Source: Roseobacter sp. (lineage in GTDB: Bacteria; Pseudomonadota; Alphaproteobacteria; Rhodobacterales; Rhodobacteraceae). Taken from it: a stretch of DNA of 64,000 nt. The stretch covers positions 522,048 to 586,047 of the forward strand of contig PCCY01000021.1 of assembly GCA_002731875.1 (NCBI GenBank). The letters run 5' to 3'. A program made the translations under genes and the position numbers. The notes under the pieces were generated by a model. The model saw only the letters and a list, made by a program, of their open reading frames with translations. It searched no databases and had not been told where the DNA came from. Below, piece after piece: positions 32,199 through 56,934 of the stretch; the stretch's first letter is position 1; each line of letters begins with the position of its first letter.

Positions 32199-35154
32199 AC
32201 CCCAGCACGAACCCCGGGTCTTTGGTGTGGCACCCGGAATAGACTTCCCCAAAGATCTGGTCACCGGCCTTTTAGAACGACTGCAAGGTCAGCCGGCACA
32301 TATCATTGGTCAAGTTGATCTGGTGGTGAACACACGGCGCATGCAACGCCGCCTCCGCGAGGTGTTCGACACGGGTCCTGCCAGCTTGTTGCCCCGAATC
32401 CATCTTATCGACAATCTAGATACGCTTGCACCGCACATCGCTTTGCCGCTTCCCAGCCCGACCCTGCGGCGGCGGCTTGAACTGATCACGCTGGTGTCCA
32501 AGCTGTTGGATCACGCGCCCGAGCTTGCGCCGCGAACATCGCTTTATGATCTGTCCGACAGTTTGGCGCAGTTGATCGACGAAATGCAGGGCGAAGGCGT
32601 CCCGGTTGAGGCTATCACCAGTCTCGACGTCAGTGATCAGTCCGGCCACTGGGAACGGTCCAAGCAGTTTCTTTCCATTGCCCACAAATATCTGGGTGAC
32701 AGCATTTCCCGCCCCGACCCACGGGCGCGCCAACGCCAGATCGTGCAGCAACTGATCGCGGACTGGACCGAAAATCCGCCCCAAAACCCAATAATCGTTG
32801 CGGGATCTACCGGTTCTCGGGGCACGTCTGCCTTGCTGATGAAAGCCGTGGCATGTTTACCGCAGGGGGCGGTGATCTTGCCCGGGTTCGACTTCGATAT
32901 GCCCACCGCCGTATGGACGGATTTAGGCGAAGACCAGGAAAAACTTGCGCAAGATCATCCGCAATATCGTTTCCGCCACCTTTTATGTGAACTCGATATG
33001 CCGCGCAGCAAAATCGGTGCCTGGACTGATGCGGTCCCGCCCTCGCCCGAGCGGAATGCGTTGGTGTCATTATCGTTGCGCCCAGCGCCTGTCACTCACG
33101 TCTGGCTTACCGAAGGGCCAAAATTGCCCGATCTTGTTTCAGCGACCAAGGGGTTGACGCTCATCCAGGCCCCTACCCCACGGGCCGAAGCGTTGGCGAT
33201 CGCCCTGCGGCTGCGCCAAGCGGTAGAGGATGGTCAAACCGCCGCCTTGATCACACCGGACCGGCTTTTGTCGCGCCAGGTTACATCGGCTCTCGACCGG
33301 TGGAACATAGTGCCAGACGATAGCGCCGGCCTCCCGCTTCATCTGTCGCCTCCGGGGCGGTTTTTGCGACACGTCGCGGGTCTTTTCCTGCGCAAGCTCG
33401 ATTCCGAAGCCTTGCTGACCCTGCTCAAACACCCCCTGACGCACAGCGGCGGTGACAGGAACATCCACCAGCTCAATACCCAGCGTCTTGAACTTCAGCT
33501 GCGGCGCGACGGGCTGCCTTATCCCACAGCCGATAGTGTACTTCGGTTGTCGCAAAAGACGGTTTCCCGGTCGAAGGACCCGTTGCAAATGGACGCATGG
33601 GCACAGTGGGTCGGATCGTGCGTGACTGGTGTAGAGATTGGCAAGGAAAGACCTTTGGAAGAATGGGTCGCCGCGCATATTGATCTTGCCAATGCCATTG
33701 CCGACGGCTCCAACCCATCGACCGCCAGTGAGCTATGGAAACATCTCGCTGGCGAAGAAGCCAGCAACGTCATGACCAATCTTTGCGAGAATGCCGCCTA
33801 CGGAGACACTATGTCTGCGTCGGACTATGGAGATTTGGTGGGGGCATTATTGCAGCAAGGTGAAATTCGCGATCGTGACGCCCCGCATCCGGGCGTGATG
33901 ATATGGGGTACCCTCGAGGCTCGCGTGCAGGGTGTGGACCTGATTATCATGGGCGGCCTGAATGACAGCATGTGGCCCGAATCCCCGGCACCGGACCCAT
34001 GGCTAAATCGAAAAATGCGCATGAAAGCGGGGTTGTTGCTTCCCGAACGCCGGATCGGATTGTCCGCACATGATTACCAGCAATCCATCGCCGCCCCCGA
34101 AGTCTGCCTGACCCGGGCAATTCGATCAGATGAAGCTGAAACAGTGCCTTCGCGTTGGTTGAACCGCTTGGGCAACCTTTTGAACGGGCTCTCTGATCAA
34201 AGCGGTGACAGGGCGTGGAAATCCATGGTCGAACGCGGTGACTATTGGCTGGCACAGGCCCGCGCACTGGAAGCGGTGCGACGCGAGCCACCAGCCCCGC
34301 GCCCTTCGCCGCGCCCTCCGCGGGCAGCGCGCCCCCATGCCTTGTCAGTAACCGAGATCAAGCGACTTATCCGGGACCCTTATGCGATCTACGCCAAGCA
34401 CAGTTTGAAATTACGGGCCCTGAACCCGTTGGTGCAATCACCCGACGCCCCGGTGCGCGGTATCATCGTTCATGAAATAATGGAGCGTTTCATCAAGTCG
34501 GTGATGGTCGAGCCTGAAAACCTTACAAAGGCACACTTGTTAGAGACCGCATCGACGGTATTGGATGCCGAGGCCCCGTGGCCTGCCGCGCGTGTGATGT
34601 GGCTGACCAAAATAGAAAGAATTGCTGAATGGTTCATTGAAAACGAGGTGAAACGCCAAAGCTATTCCAGGCCCGCCGCGTTTGAAAAAGCGGCCAACGG
34701 TCGTCATGTTTTAGCGGATTTGGGCTTTACCCTCACTGGGTATGCCGACCGTATCGACCGGACCGACGACGGCGATATATTGATATACGACTACAAGACC
34801 GGCACCCCTCCCAGTGTCGCTGAGCAAAAAGCCTTTGACAAACAGTTGCTGCTGGAGGCGGCGATGATTGAAGAGGGCGGATTCAAGGAGATTGGCCCGG
34901 CGACGGTGGCTCGCGCCGCGTATATCGGTCTTGGCAGCAAGCCGATAGAACGGCCGGCACCGCTTGAAGATGAACCCCCACATGAAGTGCTTGCCAAATT
35001 GCATGCGCTGATTACCAGCTATCTGTCCGAGGATCAGGGGTTCACCTCGCGGCGGATGGTGAAGACCACGGACTTTGCAGGAGACTATGACCAGTTGGCC
35101 CGTTTTGGCGAATGGGATGCCACAACCGAGCCGACACCGGAGGATCTGAAATGA
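32191..35154 (+). CDS. addB: Double-strand break repair protein AddB
   Basis: 987 aa; C-terminal PD-(D/E)XK nuclease region (HEIMERFIK...GYADRIDRTDDGDILIYDYKTG); precedes addA. Confidence 0.93.
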   Translation: MFEPQHEPRVFGVAPGIDFPKDLVTGLLERLQGQPAHIIGQVDLVVNTRRMQRRLREVFDTGPASLLPRIHLIDNLDTLAPHIALPLPSPTLRRRLELITLVSKLLDHAPELAPRTSLYDLSDSLAQLIDEMQGEGVPVEAITSLDVSDQSGHWERSKQFLSIAHKYLGDSISRPDPRARQRQIVQQLIADWTENPPQNPIIVAGSTGSRGTSALLMKAVACLPQGAVILPGFDFDMPTAVWTDLGEDQEKLAQDHPQYRFRHLLCELDMPRSKIGAWTDAVPPSPERNALVSLSLRPAPVTHVWLTEGPKLPDLVSATKGLTLIQAPTPRAEALAIALRLRQAVEDGQTAALITPDRLLSRQVTSALDRWNIVPDDSAGLPLHLSPPGRFLRHVAGLFLRKLDSEALLTLLKHPLTHSGGDRNIHQLNTQRLELQLRRDGLPYPTADSVLRLSQKTVSRSKDPLQMDAWAQWVGSCVTGVEIGKERPLEEWVAAHIDLANAIADGSNPSTASELWKHLAGEEASNVMTNLCENAAYGDTMSASDYGDLVGALLQQGEIRDRDAPHPGVMIWGTLEARVQGVDLIIMGGLNDSMWPESPAPDPWLNRKMRMKAGLLLPERRIGLSAHDYQQSIAAPEVCLTRAIRSDEAETVPSRWLNRLGNLLNGLSDQSGDRAWKSMVERGDYWLAQARALEAVRREPPAPRPSPRPPRAARPHALSVTEIKRLIRDPYAIYAKHSLKLRALNPLVQSPDAPVRGIIVHEIMERFIKSVMVEPENLTKAHLLETASTVLDAEAPWPAARVMWLTKIERIAEWFIENEVKRQSYSRPAAFEKAANGRHVLADLGFTLTGYADRIDRTDDGDILIYDYKTGTPPSVAEQKAFDKQLLLEAAMIEEGGFKEIGPATVARAAYIGLGSKPIERPAPLEDEPPHEVLAKLHALITSYLSEDQGFTSRRMVKTTDFAGDYDQLARFGEWDATTEPTPEDLK

Positions 35155-47764: not shown

Positions 47765-48594
47765 AGCAACGCCGCGGTGCGTGCCGCACGGTCAACCTCA
47801 GGGCGGGTGCCAAACCAGCGTTCAAAACCAGGGACGGCCTGGTGAAGCAGCATACCCAACCCATCGACGGTCACGCATCCCAGTTCTTCGGCAGTCTCAA
47901 GAAGCTTGGTTTTCAGTGGGGCGTAAACCAGATCGGTCACCACGGTGTCAGGGCTGAGACCGTCGAGGGGCACCCGTAGCTCTGGCTTGCCAATCATGCC
48001 CAGCGATGTGGTATTAACCACCAACGCCGCATGGTCCAACATATTGCCTGCTTGTACCCAGTCGTACACCGTAACGCGGTTACCAAAGACAGATTTCAGT
48101 CGATCGGCACGCACGCGCGTGCGGTTCGACAACATGATTTCGGGTACCCCTGCATCCAGCAATGATGCAATAACAGCGCGAGCGGCACCACCTGCGCCCA
48201 ATACCGCCGCTGGGCCAGCCTGTGGTGCCCAGTTTGGTGCCCCGTTCTTTAAATTTTCAAGAAAACCGTAACCGTCTGTATTATCGCCCTGGATCTTCCC
48301 ATCTGCCCGAAAAATCAATGTGTTCACGGCACCGATCAGTGCAGCGCGGTCGGTCACAAAATCCGCGATTTCCATTATGGCTTCTTTGTGGGGTAGCGTC
48401 ACATTGGCCCCGACAAACCCCATCTTGGGTAAGGTCAAAATGACGTCTTTCAAGTTAACCGGCTCTACTTCCATTGGTATGTAGGCACCTTGAATACCCA
48501 GAGTTTTCAGCCAGTGACCATGGATTTTTGGCGACTTCGAATGTGCGATCGGATAGCCGATCACTCCGGCAAGCGGTATTTTAGGCAAACTCAT
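47761..48594 (-). CDS. aroE: Shikimate dehydrogenase
   Basis: GVIGYPIAHSKSPKIHGHWL, GANVTLPHKEA, GDNTDGYGF, AAVLGAGGAARAV. Confidence 0.96.
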   Translation of the reverse strand: MSLPKIPLAGVIGYPIAHSKSPKIHGHWLKTLGIQGAYIPMEVEPVNLKDVILTLPKMGFVGANVTLPHKEAIMEIADFVTDRAALIGAVNTLIFRADGKIQGDNTDGYGFLENLKNGAPNWAPQAGPAAVLGAGGAARAVIASLLDAGVPEIMLSNRTRVRADRLKSVFGNRVTVYDWVQAGNMLDHAALVVNTTSLGMIGKPELRVPLDGLSPDTVVTDLVYAPLKTKLLETAEELGCVTVDGLGMLLHQAVPGFERWFGTRPEVDRAARTAALL

Positions 48595-49190
48595 GCAGGC
48601 AAGTTCCCTCTTAAAGTCAGATAATTAAGCAGCTCCAGCAGCGGCAATCCTAGAACATTAAAGTAATCACCTTCAATACTGCTGAAAAGTCTTACGCCTT
48701 CTTCCTCAAGTTTGTATCCGCCTACTGACTGACGGATGCTATCCCAGTTTCGCGTGACGTAATCTTCGATATAAATGTCTGATGCCTCACGCATCCGCAG
48801 TCTTACTTGACCCACGTGGCGCCAGATTGGTTTTCCACCTTCCACGATGACTGCGGCGGATAAAAGGCTGTGGCGATCACCCGCCAATGATTTTATTTGG
48901 GCGACCGCATGTTCAGGTGACGCGGGTTTGGACAGCAGTTGCCCGCGGTGATCCAGCACTTGATCACATCCCAGAACCAAAGCTTCGGGGTTCCTGTCGC
49001 TGACCTTGCGCGCCTTCATTTCGGCCAGAGTGTCAGCGATATCACGCGGCGATGCGTCTTCTGCCAGAAGGGCGGCTTTAATCGTTTCTTCATCAATTCG
49101 AGCAACGCTGACCTCGTGCGGGACATTTGCGCGTTGCAACATCTCAGTACGCACGGGTGAAGCAGATGCGAGGATTAGTGTTTGTGACAT
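48591..49190 (-). CDS. maf: Maf family nucleotide pyrophosphatase
   Basis: LILASASPVRTEMLQRANVP; VLGCDQVLDHRGQLLSKP. Confidence 0.94.
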   Translation of the reverse strand: MSQTLILASASPVRTEMLQRANVPHEVSVARIDEETIKAALLAEDASPRDIADTLAEMKARKVSDRNPEALVLGCDQVLDHRGQLLSKPASPEHAVAQIKSLAGDRHSLLSAAVIVEGGKPIWRHVGQVRLRMREASDIYIEDYVTRNWDSIRQSVGGYKLEEEGVRLFSSIEGDYFNVLGLPLLELLNYLTLRGNLPA

Positions 49191-49582
49191 GGGGATAAAC
49201 CTGTGAACGACCTTAAGAACTTTTTAAGGATTTCTCGGTAGGAAAGCGAGGGTAACCGACTTGCCCAGGTATAGCCCTGATTTTCGGTCACGTTGTCCCG
49301 GGTTATACGGGGAGGGATAAGGATAAAACCGCAACACCCTTTATATGTTTAATCCCAAGTTTATCCCCAGAACACTACAATATTTTCTGCGCTCTATATC
49401 TCGTTAAGCTACTGATATTAATAATTATTAACGACGGTGTACTTTGTTGTCCTCTATCGTGACAATTCAATGTGCACAGGTGGATAAATCAACGCATAAC
49501 TGGATAATCCACAGGTTTTGTGTTCTCTACTTACATCATCATCTTTCTTCTTTTCTTATTTATATTAGAAAGACCGCGATGA
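49191..49582. other. oriC: Candidate chromosomal replication origin (oriC)
   Basis: 392-bp non-coding, locally AT-rich gap between divergent maf and hemJ; four 9-mers one mismatch from DnaA box TTATCCACA (49190-49198, 49361-49369, 49479-49487, 49505-49513), AT tract near 49415-49431, CtrA box at 49213-49227; flanking genes transcribed away on both sides; parAB/parS within 7 kb. Confidence 0.75.
49213..49227. promoter_or_regulatory. CtrA box (TTAA-N7-TTAA) inside the candidate oriC
   Basis: TTAAgaactttTTAA; extends to CCTTAA-N7-TTAAGG inverted repeat (49211-49229). Confidence 0.65.
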
Positions 49583-49594
49583 ATGGAGAGTGAT

Positions 49595-50044
49595 ATGTCT
49601 GACCTTCTGGCCGCCGTTTACCCTTGGGCGAAGGCTTTACATATCATGGCTGTTATCTCTTGGATGGCTGCGTTGTTCTATCTGCCGCGGCTTTTGGTGC
49701 ATCACACCGAACAAGTTGGGTTGCAGGGGCCGACCCACGAGCTGTTTTCAATGATGGAATTCAAGCTTGCCACGATAATCATGCGGCCGGCTATGATCGC
49801 CACCTGGATTTTTGGGCTAAGCTTGGTTTTTACACCCGGCGTCGTCGATTGGACGGCTTGGTGGCCATGGACCAAAGGGATCAGCGTGATCGCGATGACA
49901 GCGTTCCATGAATGGCTTTACGCCCGGGTCAAAGACTTTGCTTCGGGAAGCAACACGGTAACGGGTAGACAATACAGAATTATGAACGAAGTCCCGACGG
50001 TATTGATGATTGTCATTGTCCTGTCTGTGGTGGTGAAATTCTAA
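49595..50044 (+). CDS. hemJ: Protoporphyrinogen IX oxidase HemJ
   Basis: YPWAKALHIMAVISWMAALFYLPRLLVHH (HemJ His region) and four TM segments. Confidence 0.93.
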   Translation: MSDLLAAVYPWAKALHIMAVISWMAALFYLPRLLVHHTEQVGLQGPTHELFSMMEFKLATIIMRPAMIATWIFGLSLVFTPGVVDWTAWWPWTKGISVIAMTAFHEWLYARVKDFASGSNTVTGRQYRIMNEVPTVLMIVIVLSVVVKF

Positions 50045-52761: not shown

Positions 52762-54633
52762 GTGTTTCACGTGAAACATTTTGATGTCATCGTTATCGGC
52801 GGCGGACATGCCGGATCTGAAGCAGCCCACGCCGCAGCGCGGATGGGTGCACGTACTGCGCTGGTGACGATGTCAAAATCCGGGATCGGTGTGATGTCGT
52901 GCAACCCGGCTATCGGTGGATTGGGGAAAGGCCATCTGGTTCGTGAAATCGACGCGATGGATGGGGTTATGGGACGCGTTGCTGACAAGGCGGGTATCCA
53001 GTTTCGGCTGTTGAACCGCAGAAAAGGCCCAGCGGTACAGGGTCCTCGGGCGCAAGCAGATCGTAAAATTTACCAAACCGAAATGCTGAAAGAGATTGAG
53101 CAACAACCCAATCTTGAGATAGTTGAAGGTGAGGTCGTCGACTTTGTTGTAGAAGATCGCCACGTCACCGGGGTTGTTCTTACCAACGGGGAAGGCTTGG
53201 CGGGTAACGCCATAGTGCTCACCACCGGGACATTTTTGCGCGGTGTTATCCATATTGGCGATATCTCACGATCCGGTGGCCGAATGGGGGACAAGGCGTC
53301 AGTAAAACTGGCCGAGCGGATCGACTCATTTAACCTTCCGTTAGGCCGCCTAAAGACTGGTACGCCTCCGCGTCTTGATGGCCGGACCATCGACTGGGAT
53401 CTTCTCGAGTCTCAGCCCGGCGATGACGAGCCCACGCTTTTCTCATTTCTCTCGAAGGGCACGTCGACTCCTCAAGTTACTTGCGGCATCACCCACACCA
53501 ATGCAGAAACCCATCAGATCATCCGAGAAAACCTTTCGCGTTCAGCCATGTATGGCGGTAAAATTGAAGGCATCGGCCCGCGATATTGTCCGTCCATAGA
53601 AGATAAAGTGGTTCGGTTCGCTGATAAGGAATCACACCAGGTATTTCTTGAGCCCGAAGGACTGGATGATCATACGGTTTATCCTAACGGGATTTCCACA
53701 TCGCTTCCTGCAGATGTACAGCTGGCCTATGTACGGTCGATGATCGGGCTAAGCAACGTCGAGATTATCCAACCTGGGTATGCGATAGAATATGATTACA
53801 TCGATCCGCGGGCTTTGGACCTCACTCTCAAGGTTAAATCACTTGGGGGTTTATTTCTTGCTGGCCAGATAAATGGAACGACGGGATATGAAGAAGCTGC
53901 TGCCCAGGGACTGGTCGCCGGTCTAAACGCCGCGCTTCTGGCGTTGGGAAGAGAACCGGTTATATTTACCAGGTCGCAGAGCTACATCGGGGTGATGATT
54001 GATGATCTGACGACCCGCGGGGTGTCTGAGCCTTATCGAATGTTTACATCGCGGGCGGAATTCCGGCTATCGCTTCGGGCGGATAATGCTGACCAGCGTC
54101 TTACGCCTCTCGCTATGTCATTAGGATGCATTTCCTCTGAACGTGCTGAAAGTTATTTGAATAAGGCAGACCGTTTGATTGATGCGATGGCGCGCCTCAA
54201 AGGCACCCGTTATTCGCCACGGCTGATCGAAAAAGCAGGAATCAAGGTTAGTCAAGATGGCGCGAAGCGAACTGCTTATGAGCTACTGTCATTTCCTGAT
54301 GTCAAGTTTGAACAAGTGCTCACGTTGGATGCTAGTTTGGAAAATGTTGACGCGGACGTGAGACGCCAGGTAGAGCGTGACGCACTTTATGCTAACTATA
54401 TCGAGCGTCAGCAGCGTGACATTGACTTGTTGCGCAAAGACGAGGCCCACCAGATTCCAGTGGAATTCGACTATGCTTCAGTTGAGGGCTTATCAAATGA
54501 GCTCAGTTCGAAGTTGCAAAGGTCTTTGCCTGAAAATCTTGCGCAGGCTGCGCGCATTGACGGTATGACCCCCTCAGCCCTGACTTTACTTCTTTCGCAT
54601 TTAAAACGCGGTACAAAAAAGAGAATAGCGTGA
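52762..54633 (+). CDS. mnmG: tRNA uridine-5-carboxymethylaminomethyl(34) synthesis enzyme MnmG (GTG start 52762, or 52771)
   Basis: [36 protein letters not shown]; whole-length MnmG pattern. Confidence 0.97.
52763..52778. promoter_or_regulatory. parS: parS site 1 (ParB-binding palindrome) at the 5' end of mnmG
   Basis: TGTTTCACGTGAAACA, perfect 16-bp palindrome; parAB encoded about 2.5 kb downstream. Confidence 0.92.
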
Positions 54634-55238
54634 CGCGAAGTTTTGACGAAAATGTTTCACGTGAAACATTGGACCAGTTCACTTTATTCGCAAGCATTGT
54701 GGAAAAGTGGACGCCAAAGATAAACCTGATTTCCAAAGCCAGCGTTCCCAATATATGGCAGCGCCATATTGAGGACTCGATGCAGCTGTATTCGCTTGCA
54801 CCCGCGGTTGACAGCTGGGTCGATTTGGGAAGTGGAGGCGGGTTCCCGGCTATTGTCGTAGCACTGTTGGCAAATCAGGATGGGCGGAATACCAAGTTTA
54901 CCTTGGTGGAAAGTGATCAACGAAAATGCGCTTTCCTGCGTACCGCTATCAGGGAGCTAGACCTCAAGGCCGATGTGTTAAATGACCGTATCGAAAACAT
55001 TGCTCCACTTGAGGCAGATGTGGTTTCTGCCAGGGCTCTTGCAGACCTCTCAACGTTGATTGGCCTTGCGCGTCGTCATTTAAGATCCGATGGGATCGCG
55101 ATTTTTCCTAAAGGAAGAAACTGGAAAGCCGAAGATACCAAGGCGAGACTGAGCTGGAAATACGTGAACGAAGCCATCCCGAGCAGAACTGACTCATCGG
55201 CGGCGATTTTGAAGATCAAGGAGATCAAGCATGTCTGA
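54630..55238 (+). CDS. rsmG: 16S rRNA (guanine(527)-N(7))-methyltransferase RsmG
   Basis: [31 protein letters not shown]...[16 protein letters not shown]; overlaps mnmG stop (GTGA). Confidence 0.96.
54653..54668. promoter_or_regulatory. parS: parS site 2 (ParB-binding palindrome) inside rsmG
   Basis: TGTTTCACGTGAAACA, identical to the site at 52763; encodes NVSRET in rsmG. Confidence 0.92.
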
Positions 55239-56031
55239 TCTATCACGGCCGAGCGGCCCAAAGATTATCGCGATTGCTAATCAGAAAGGTGGCGTCGGAA
55301 AAACGACGACGACGATAAATTTGGCTGCCGCACTGGTAGAGGAAGGCAAACGTGTCCTGGTCATTGATTTGGATCCGCAGGGAAATGCGTCGACTGGTCT
55401 AGGTATCGATATCGATAATCGCGACTTTACAACATACGAGCTTCTTCTCGAGGACATCGCGCTCGACCAAGTTATTTTGACGACAGCGACCGAAGGTCTG
55501 CATATCGTTCCGGCAACCGTCGATCTGAGTTCTGCCGATTTGGAGTTAATCTCGAACGAAAAAAGAAGCTTTCTACTTCATGATGCGCTGCGGCAGACTT
55601 CAATGGATGATTTCAGGTTTGACTATATCCTAATAGACTGCCCGCCGTCGCTGAACCTGTTGACGGTGAATGCGATGATCGCTGCGCATTCAATACTGGT
55701 ACCGCTTCAAAGCGAATTTTTCGCGCTTGAAGGCTTATCCCAACTGATGCTGACGATCAGAGAGGTTCGCCAAAGCGGTAATAAGGATCTGAGGATAGAA
55801 GGCGTTCTATTAACAATGTACGATCAACGAAATAATTTGTCACAGCAGGTCGAACATGATGCAAGAACCAACTTGGGTGAATTGGTGTACAAAACCGTTA
55901 TCCCAAGGAATGTTCGAGTGAGCGAGGCCCCGAGCTTTTCGATGCCGGTACTAAGCTATGACAGCGGGTCGAAAGGCGCGAAGGCTTATCGAGACCTTGC
56001 AAGAGAGATTCTGACAAACGGCGTTATATAA
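55231..56031 (+). CDS. parA: Chromosome partitioning protein ParA
   Basis: KIIAIANQKGGVGKTTTTINLAAALVEEGKRVLVIDLDPQGNASTGLGI. Confidence 0.97.
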   Translation: MSDLSRPSGPKIIAIANQKGGVGKTTTTINLAAALVEEGKRVLVIDLDPQGNASTGLGIDIDNRDFTTYELLLEDIALDQVILTTATEGLHIVPATVDLSSADLELISNEKRSFLLHDALRQTSMDDFRFDYILIDCPPSLNLLTVNAMIAAHSILVPLQSEFFALEGLSQLMLTIREVRQSGNKDLRIEGVLLTMYDQRNNLSQQVEHDARTNLGELVYKTVIPRNVRVSEAPSFSMPVLSYDSGSKGAKAYRDLAREILTNGVI

Positions 56032-56046
56032 ATCCAGGGGGAAGCA

Positions 56047-56934
56047 ATGGCAGAAAGAGACAAGCGGCGCGGATTAGGACGCGGGTTATCGGCTTTGATG
56101 GCGGATGTGACGGAAACTCAAAGCGTAGCAGAGCAGGGTGCTGCTGAACATTTTATACCGATCGAAAAAATATCTCCTAATCCGGAGCAGCCGCGCAAGC
56201 GGTTCGACCCGGAAGACTTGCAGGATTTAGCAAACTCGATCCGCGAGAAAGGCGTCATCCAGCCGCTTATCGTTCGGGGGCGTGAGGACGGTACTTTTGA
56301 AATCGTCGCGGGGGAGCGTCGCTGGCGCGCGTCGCAGATGGCTCAGCTGCACGAACTGCCGGTTATCATCCGGGAGTTTACTGACGTTGAAGTCCTTGAA
56401 GTGGCGATTATCGAGAACATCCAACGTGCGGATCTGAACTCTATCGAAGAGGCTGCGGGTTATCGACAGCTTATGGACAGGTTCGGTCATACCCAAGAAA
56501 AGATGGCTGAAGCCTTGGGCAAAAGCCGCAGTCACATAGCCAACCTGCTGAGGTTGCTCAATCTACCAGACGACGTTCTTGAGATGGTGCGCGTTGGGGA
56601 TCTTTCTGCGGGGCATGCACGAACACTTGTGCCAGCTGCGAACCCGTCAAAGCTTGCCAAGCAGATAATTGCGGGCGGCTTGTCGGTTCGCGCCACAGAG
56701 GCGTTGGTGAAGAAAGAGCAAAGTGGCGACGCATCCACAAGTCCGAAAAGATCTTTGCCGAAGGATGCCGAGAAAGATGCTGATACGCGCGCGTTAGAAG
56801 GTGACCTGTCAGCCAATTTGGGTATCAAGGTAACATTAAACCACAAGCCGGGGCAGGAATCGGGGCAAATGGTGCTGCACTATAATACGATGGATGAACT
56901 GGATGAAATATGCCGGCTTCTGTCGGTGAGTTAA
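56047..56934 (+). CDS. parB: Chromosome partitioning protein ParB
   Basis: RRGLGRGLSALMAD...IEKISPNPEQPRKRFDPEDLQDLANSI...GERRWRASQMA. Confidence 0.97.
   Translation: MAERDKRRGLGRGLSALMADVTETQSVAEQGAAEHFIPIEKISPNPEQPRKRFDPEDLQDLANSIREKGVIQPLIVRGREDGTFEIVAGERRWRASQMAQLHELPVIIREFTDVEVLEVAIIENIQRADLNSIEEAAGYRQLMDRFGHTQEKMAEALGKSRSHIANLLRLLNLPDDVLEMVRVGDLSAGHARTLVPAANPSKLAKQIIAGGLSVRATEALVKKEQSGDASTSPKRSLPKDAEKDADTRALEGDLSANLGIKVTLNHKPGQESGQMVLHYNTMDELDEICRLLSVS

Follow-up and report, generated by a model that had tools for sequence, protein, structure and literature searches.

Gene content and composition of the maf–hemJ intergenic region

The window analysed here, a 64,000-nucleotide stretch of a 955,805-bp contig, contains a non-coding gap between two genes that point outward from it: maf on the left (48591–49190, minus strand; PF02545, E 1.2e-44) and hemJ on the right (49595–50044, plus strand; PF03653, UPF0093, E 1.5e-53). 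Both are transcribed away from the gap, as the preliminary description of this DNA had stated, and Pfam searches bore out the gene names for the ten products tested, namely Maf, AroE and SecB to the left and HemJ, Rho, MnmE, MnmG, RsmG, ParA and ParB to the right. The gap is real as well, although its earlier length of 392 bp and the earlier hemJ start at 49583 had to be revised. Because relatives align from 49595 and a GGAG ribosome site lies upstream, the hemJ start is placed at 49595, and the whole intergenic region between the maf and hemJ start codons, treated below as the oriC region, spans 404 bp (49191–49594). On the contig the gap lies at 571,238–571,629.

The GC content of the gap is 40%, compared with 56% for the contig, which puts it among the lowest 0.01–0.02% of windows of equal size. 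Two AT-rich stretches had been singled out earlier; one of them, cttcttttcttatttatatta, is part of a strongly conserved block, whereas the other, attaataattattaa, is not conserved. No RNA family in Rfam matched within the window, and GANTC sites are absent from the gap. The dnaA gene, correctly described as lying outside the window, is found on the same contig, 285 kb leftward. Contig C23 (150 kb) carries two short DnaA-domain-like matches (70272–70565 and 84111–84410, E about 1e-8), which perhaps correspond to an Hda-like protein, a DnaC/IstB-type ATPase or a plasmid replication initiator.

DnaA boxes and regulatory motifs

Four 9-mers, each one mismatch away from the DnaA box TTATCCACA, had been reported in this region, and all four were recovered at the same positions; none of them is an exact consensus box. 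The first, TTATCCCCA on the minus strand (49190–49198), touches the maf start codon and reads TTATCCACA in many relatives; a minus-strand box keeps this place in nearly all relatives, with 78 box calls over 81 gaps. The same 9-mer on the plus strand (49361–49369) is replaced by TTATCCACA in several close relatives. The third, TTATCCACC (49479–49487, minus strand), is inverted relative to the fourth, TAATCCACA (49505–49513, plus strand), which has conserved strand and spacing and is the putative loading box of the unwinding element described below. Simulated gaps of matched composition held a mean of 0.13 boxes and reached four in none of 5000 cases, and the gap is the densest 400-bp box window of the entire contig, with four boxes versus two for the runner-up. 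The best window in 1.43 Mb of other contigs contained three, the sequence scanned for boxes making up less than two-thirds of the genome. A further block, GGGATAAGGATAAA (49314–49327, minus strand), consists of two tandem TTATCC half-boxes and is strongly conserved in the family, many of its columns being conserved at 75–98% or more over 81 gaps; these half-boxes are possible weak DnaA sites.

Close to the maf-side box lies a strict CtrA-type palindromic site, TTAAGAACTTTTTAA (TTAA-N7-TTAA; 49213–49227), 31–32 nt from the maf start. The whole contig has seven strict sites of this type, and the chance of finding one in a gap of this composition is 0.03. Of 110 gaps, nine, mostly of Sulfitobacter type, share a strict site at this offset, these nine being related sequences and not nine independent events; 16 more gaps are one mismatch off, and four control offsets taken together gave two exact sites. 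The site could equally serve as a maf promoter element. For IHF, the gap holds no match to the standard consensus and two weak matches to a loose one.

Conservation of the gap in relatives

The divergent maf–hemJ arrangement was present in all 80 species found through HemJ, with gaps of 384–422 bp. A second draw across the family returned it in 30 of 30 genomes, with gaps of 373–456 bp; this set, which includes the window's own genome and in which hardly any genus is repeated, was confined to the 30 strongest HemJ matches and so to the nearer members of the family. Together the two draws comprise 109 relatives, some species possibly occurring in both. Adjacency to maf, the position recorded for oriC in Rhodobacteraceae, was seen in every genome of either set (80/80 and 30/30). 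Boxes are similarly persistent, at a mean of 3.0 per gap as against 0.12 per 404 bp of flanking DNA, and scrambled boxes gave 0.13.

A putative unwinding element on the hemJ side

The most conserved block of the alignment has the form TAATCCAC(A/G), 13 nt, CTAC, an A/C/T-rich step, ATCATC, a T/C tract and TTATTATTA. In the window this block appears as a probable unwinding element at 49505–49567, in which TAATCCACA is followed by 13 nt, CTACTTAC, (ATC)3 and a T/C-rich tract. The loading box is separated from the first trio by a 13-nt spacer (49514–49526, plus strand), a length found in 73 of the 89 gaps that allowed both the box and CTAC to be called. Beyond it, a DnaA-trio-like tract, the putative unwinding element proper (49527–49567, plus strand), reads CTA CTT AC and then continues from 49535 as 11 NTN triplets (ATC three times, then TTT, CTT, CTT, TTC, TTA, TTT, ATA and TTA), which correspond to.A. 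on the minus strand. Among 158 boxes on the contig, no other is followed within 25 nt by the start of a comparable run, the next best reaching four triplets against 11 here.

This arrangement resembles the design of the basal unwinding system (BUS), for which a published search required three or more.A. trios behind a box with up to 2 mismatches and a spacer of at most 16 bp, 13 bp being the most frequent length (PMC8287927). The fit, as read from the sequence, is good but not strict, owing to a phase break in the window and to runs that are shorter in part of the relatives. The box and the 13-nt spacer agree with that search, but CTA CTT supplies just two trios before the 2-nt break, and the unbroken series of eleven begins 21 nt from the box. 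Nor is strict NTN phase universal, as in 28 of 110 gaps the longest run within the last 110 nt amounts to 3–4 triplets. A widened BUS pattern often arises by chance in the class as a whole, and it is uninformative outside the family. Four divergent relatives (L212, L219, L224 and L230) carry a second box, TCCACAG, followed by a GC-rich step, within the 13-nt spacer.

Chromosomal position: GC skew, KOPS-like motifs and parS

After the 48 stretches of the contig had been joined, cumulative GC skew over its 955,805 bp formed a single V. The curve falls steadily to −8336 at window position 33,531, stands at about −8265 at the gap and then rises to +342. Between its minimum, 15.7 kb left of the gap, and the gap itself it is almost flat, following a descent of over 8000. 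The sharpest 50-kb skew contrast is at 571,200 of the contig, immediately beside the gap. In a step model the break came out at 555 kb; its bootstrap interval, 535–572.6 kb, includes the gap near its right edge. Line fits placed the break at 541–561 kb. The preliminary description had named a distant skew minimum as evidence that would speak against an origin here; on this 956-kb contig the turn falls within 16 kb of the gap. Steady one-way skew with no V was seen in four sizeable stretches of other contigs, namely C4, C7, C20 and the first 100 kb of C15.

The KOPS-like leading-strand motif GGGNAGGG reverses its polarity at the gap, with 17 plus-strand and 54 minus-strand copies on the left arm and 42 and 9, respectively, on the right; in the last 71 kb to the left of the gap its polarity is mixed (9 plus, 8 minus). 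The same motif was located in a genome of the same genus assembled as one 4.2-Mb contig (G155), where hemJ lies at 123.2 kb. The reverse motif CCCTGCCC is dense there up to 108 kb (10 copies), sparse between 108 kb and 2.30 Mb (15 copies) and dense again over the following 0.59 Mb (75 copies). The forward motif is mixed up to 117 kb (7 matches) and does not become dense before about 370 kb. Polarity accordingly switches at about 108–230 kb and again at about 2.30 Mb; the first switch falls close to the gap, and roughly half a chromosome (~2.2 Mb) separates it from the second, as for an origin and a terminus.

Two perfect parS sites, both TGTTTCACGTGAAACA, lie 3.2 kb and 5.1 kb to the right of the gap, in the starts of mnmG (52763–52778) and rsmG (54653–54668), and they are the only ones in the genome when up to 2 mismatches are allowed. 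The chromosome partition genes parA and parB follow on the plus strand (55231–56934; PF13614, PF02195/PF17762).

Assignment of the origin and competing readings

The features by which a chromosomal origin is usually recognised come together at this locus: a cluster of DnaA boxes in AT-rich non-coding DNA, a turn of the skew from negative to positive and parS sites with parAB nearby. The earlier reading of the gap as oriC is upheld by skew, KOPS polarity, parS and ParAB, the box cluster, the low GC content and conservation in 109 relatives. The evidence on location, clustered boxes, conservation, skew, KOPS polarity and parS is computational throughout, and on these grounds the 404-bp maf–hemJ gap is, almost certainly, the chromosomal oriC of this Sulfitobacter-like marine bacterium.

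Since the skew minimum does not coincide with the gap, one may ask whether the true origin lies elsewhere in the flat part of the curve, at roughly 13–49 kb of the window, the gap being merely a DnaA-regulated promoter region of maf and hemJ. The cumulative minimum at 33,531 and the line-fit break at 541–561 kb of the contig both point in that direction. Elsewhere on the contig, however, no window exceeds two boxes per 400 bp, parS and the family-wide constraint are found at or beside the gap, and the curve hardly changes level between its minimum and the gap; moreover, a length of 373–456 bp kept in 109 relatives is not needed for promoter control. An origin within the flat stretch is very improbable. 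An origin at dnaA, as in many bacteria, is a still weaker contender, with a probability that is practically negligible: dnaA is indeed on the same contig, but neither a skew turn nor a box cluster is found there, and the Caulobacter oriC is likewise located elsewhere, between hemE and a DUF299 gene (PMC1914354). Origins at dnaA and at the skew minimum are both rejected.

A different question, compatible with the assignment of the gap as oriC, is where within it the DNA would open. The central stretch at 49416–49431 is very AT-rich and lies between boxes, which would suit an opening site. Yet it is not conserved even in close relatives, among which the hemJ-side tract is nearly identical letter for letter, and the BUS-like geometry belongs to the hemJ-side tract. 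Opening at the centre thus appears rather unlikely, and the hemJ-side tract is the preferred candidate.

Proposed mechanism and implications

DnaA binding, opening and helicase loading at the gap may be envisaged by analogy with known DnaA and BUS biology. DnaA-ATP would bind the spaced boxes at 49190, 49361, 49479 and 49505 and extend from the plus-facing box at 49505 over the 13-nt spacer onto the minus-strand trio tract (the complement of CTACTTAC-ATCATCATC-TTTCTTCTT..., 49527–49567). The T/C-rich stretch beside hemJ would then open, and the helicase would be loaded there. Two forks would proceed outward, co-directionally with transcription of maf and hemJ, and ParB bound to the two parS sites 3–5 kb away would separate the new origins.

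It is tempting to go further and to suppose that the Sulfitobacter-type CtrA site beside the maf-side box gates replication through the CtrA phosphorelay, a small Caulobacter-like switch within an order in which CtrA is dispensable, while the family as a whole opens its origin by way of the fixed box–13 nt–trio element. Taken together, this proposal is a speculative one, and we consider it doubtful. In the Rhodobacterales studied, CtrA can be lost without growth defects, yet for some of them CtrA has been reported to affect replication (PMC8116508); with a CtrA site inside the origin, the way in which it does so can be tested directly. More broadly, fixing the start of replication to 404 bp provides a reference for work on replichores, gene dosage and the cell cycle in roseobacters, and the alignment yields a concrete, testable unwinding element and a CtrA site limited to one clade.

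Relation to known origins

The preliminary description had likened the flanks to those of Caulobacter and other alphaproteobacteria, which is only partly exact: in Caulobacter crescentus the origin, Cori, lies between hemE and a DUF299 gene (PMC1914354). No DUF299 (PF03618) gene was found in the present genome, and hemE is on another contig (C22), so the arrangement is best described as a related but changed version of that in Caulobacter. The two origins are alike in their length of 404 bp (strain CB15), in their DnaA boxes, in being richer in AT than the genome and, for some members of the family, in a CtrA-type site. They differ in that Cori contains five CtrA sites and one IHF site (PMC1914354), while the gap described here has a single strict CtrA-type site and no standard IHF match; it has neither the hemE/DUF299 flanks nor the several CtrA sites with an IHF site that mark an origin of the Caulobacter type.

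Like the BUS of Bacillus subtilis oriC, the hemJ-side element has a DnaA box, a spacer of about 13 bp and, on the strand read 3'-5', successive.A. trinucleotides (PMC8287927). It differs in having, in this genome, only one recognisable box before the trios and a trio phase that breaks once, after CTACTT. The paired boxes in the four divergent relatives resemble the tandem boxes of B. subtilis; the window has no second box in its spacer, having either lost it or never had it.

Within the family itself, a paper on Ketogulonicigenium vulgare cites DoriC for an oriC beside maf that is conserved in Rhodobacteraceae (PMC4793288), and Ori-Finder assignments of oriC exist for 101 family genomes (PMC6699656). 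In the literature searched, which excluded supplements and most subscription journals, no experimental mapping of oriC in the family was found. The predicted Rhodobacteraceae origins (DoriC/Ori-Finder; K. vulgare) adjoin maf just as the gap does here, and the K. vulgare account, in its accessible part, is a prediction of location that does not include the box–spacer–trio anatomy, the fixed spacing or the CtrA site (PMC4793288). The position of the origin in the family had thus already been predicted, and what is new is a detailed map of the conserved DNA-opening element within the gap.
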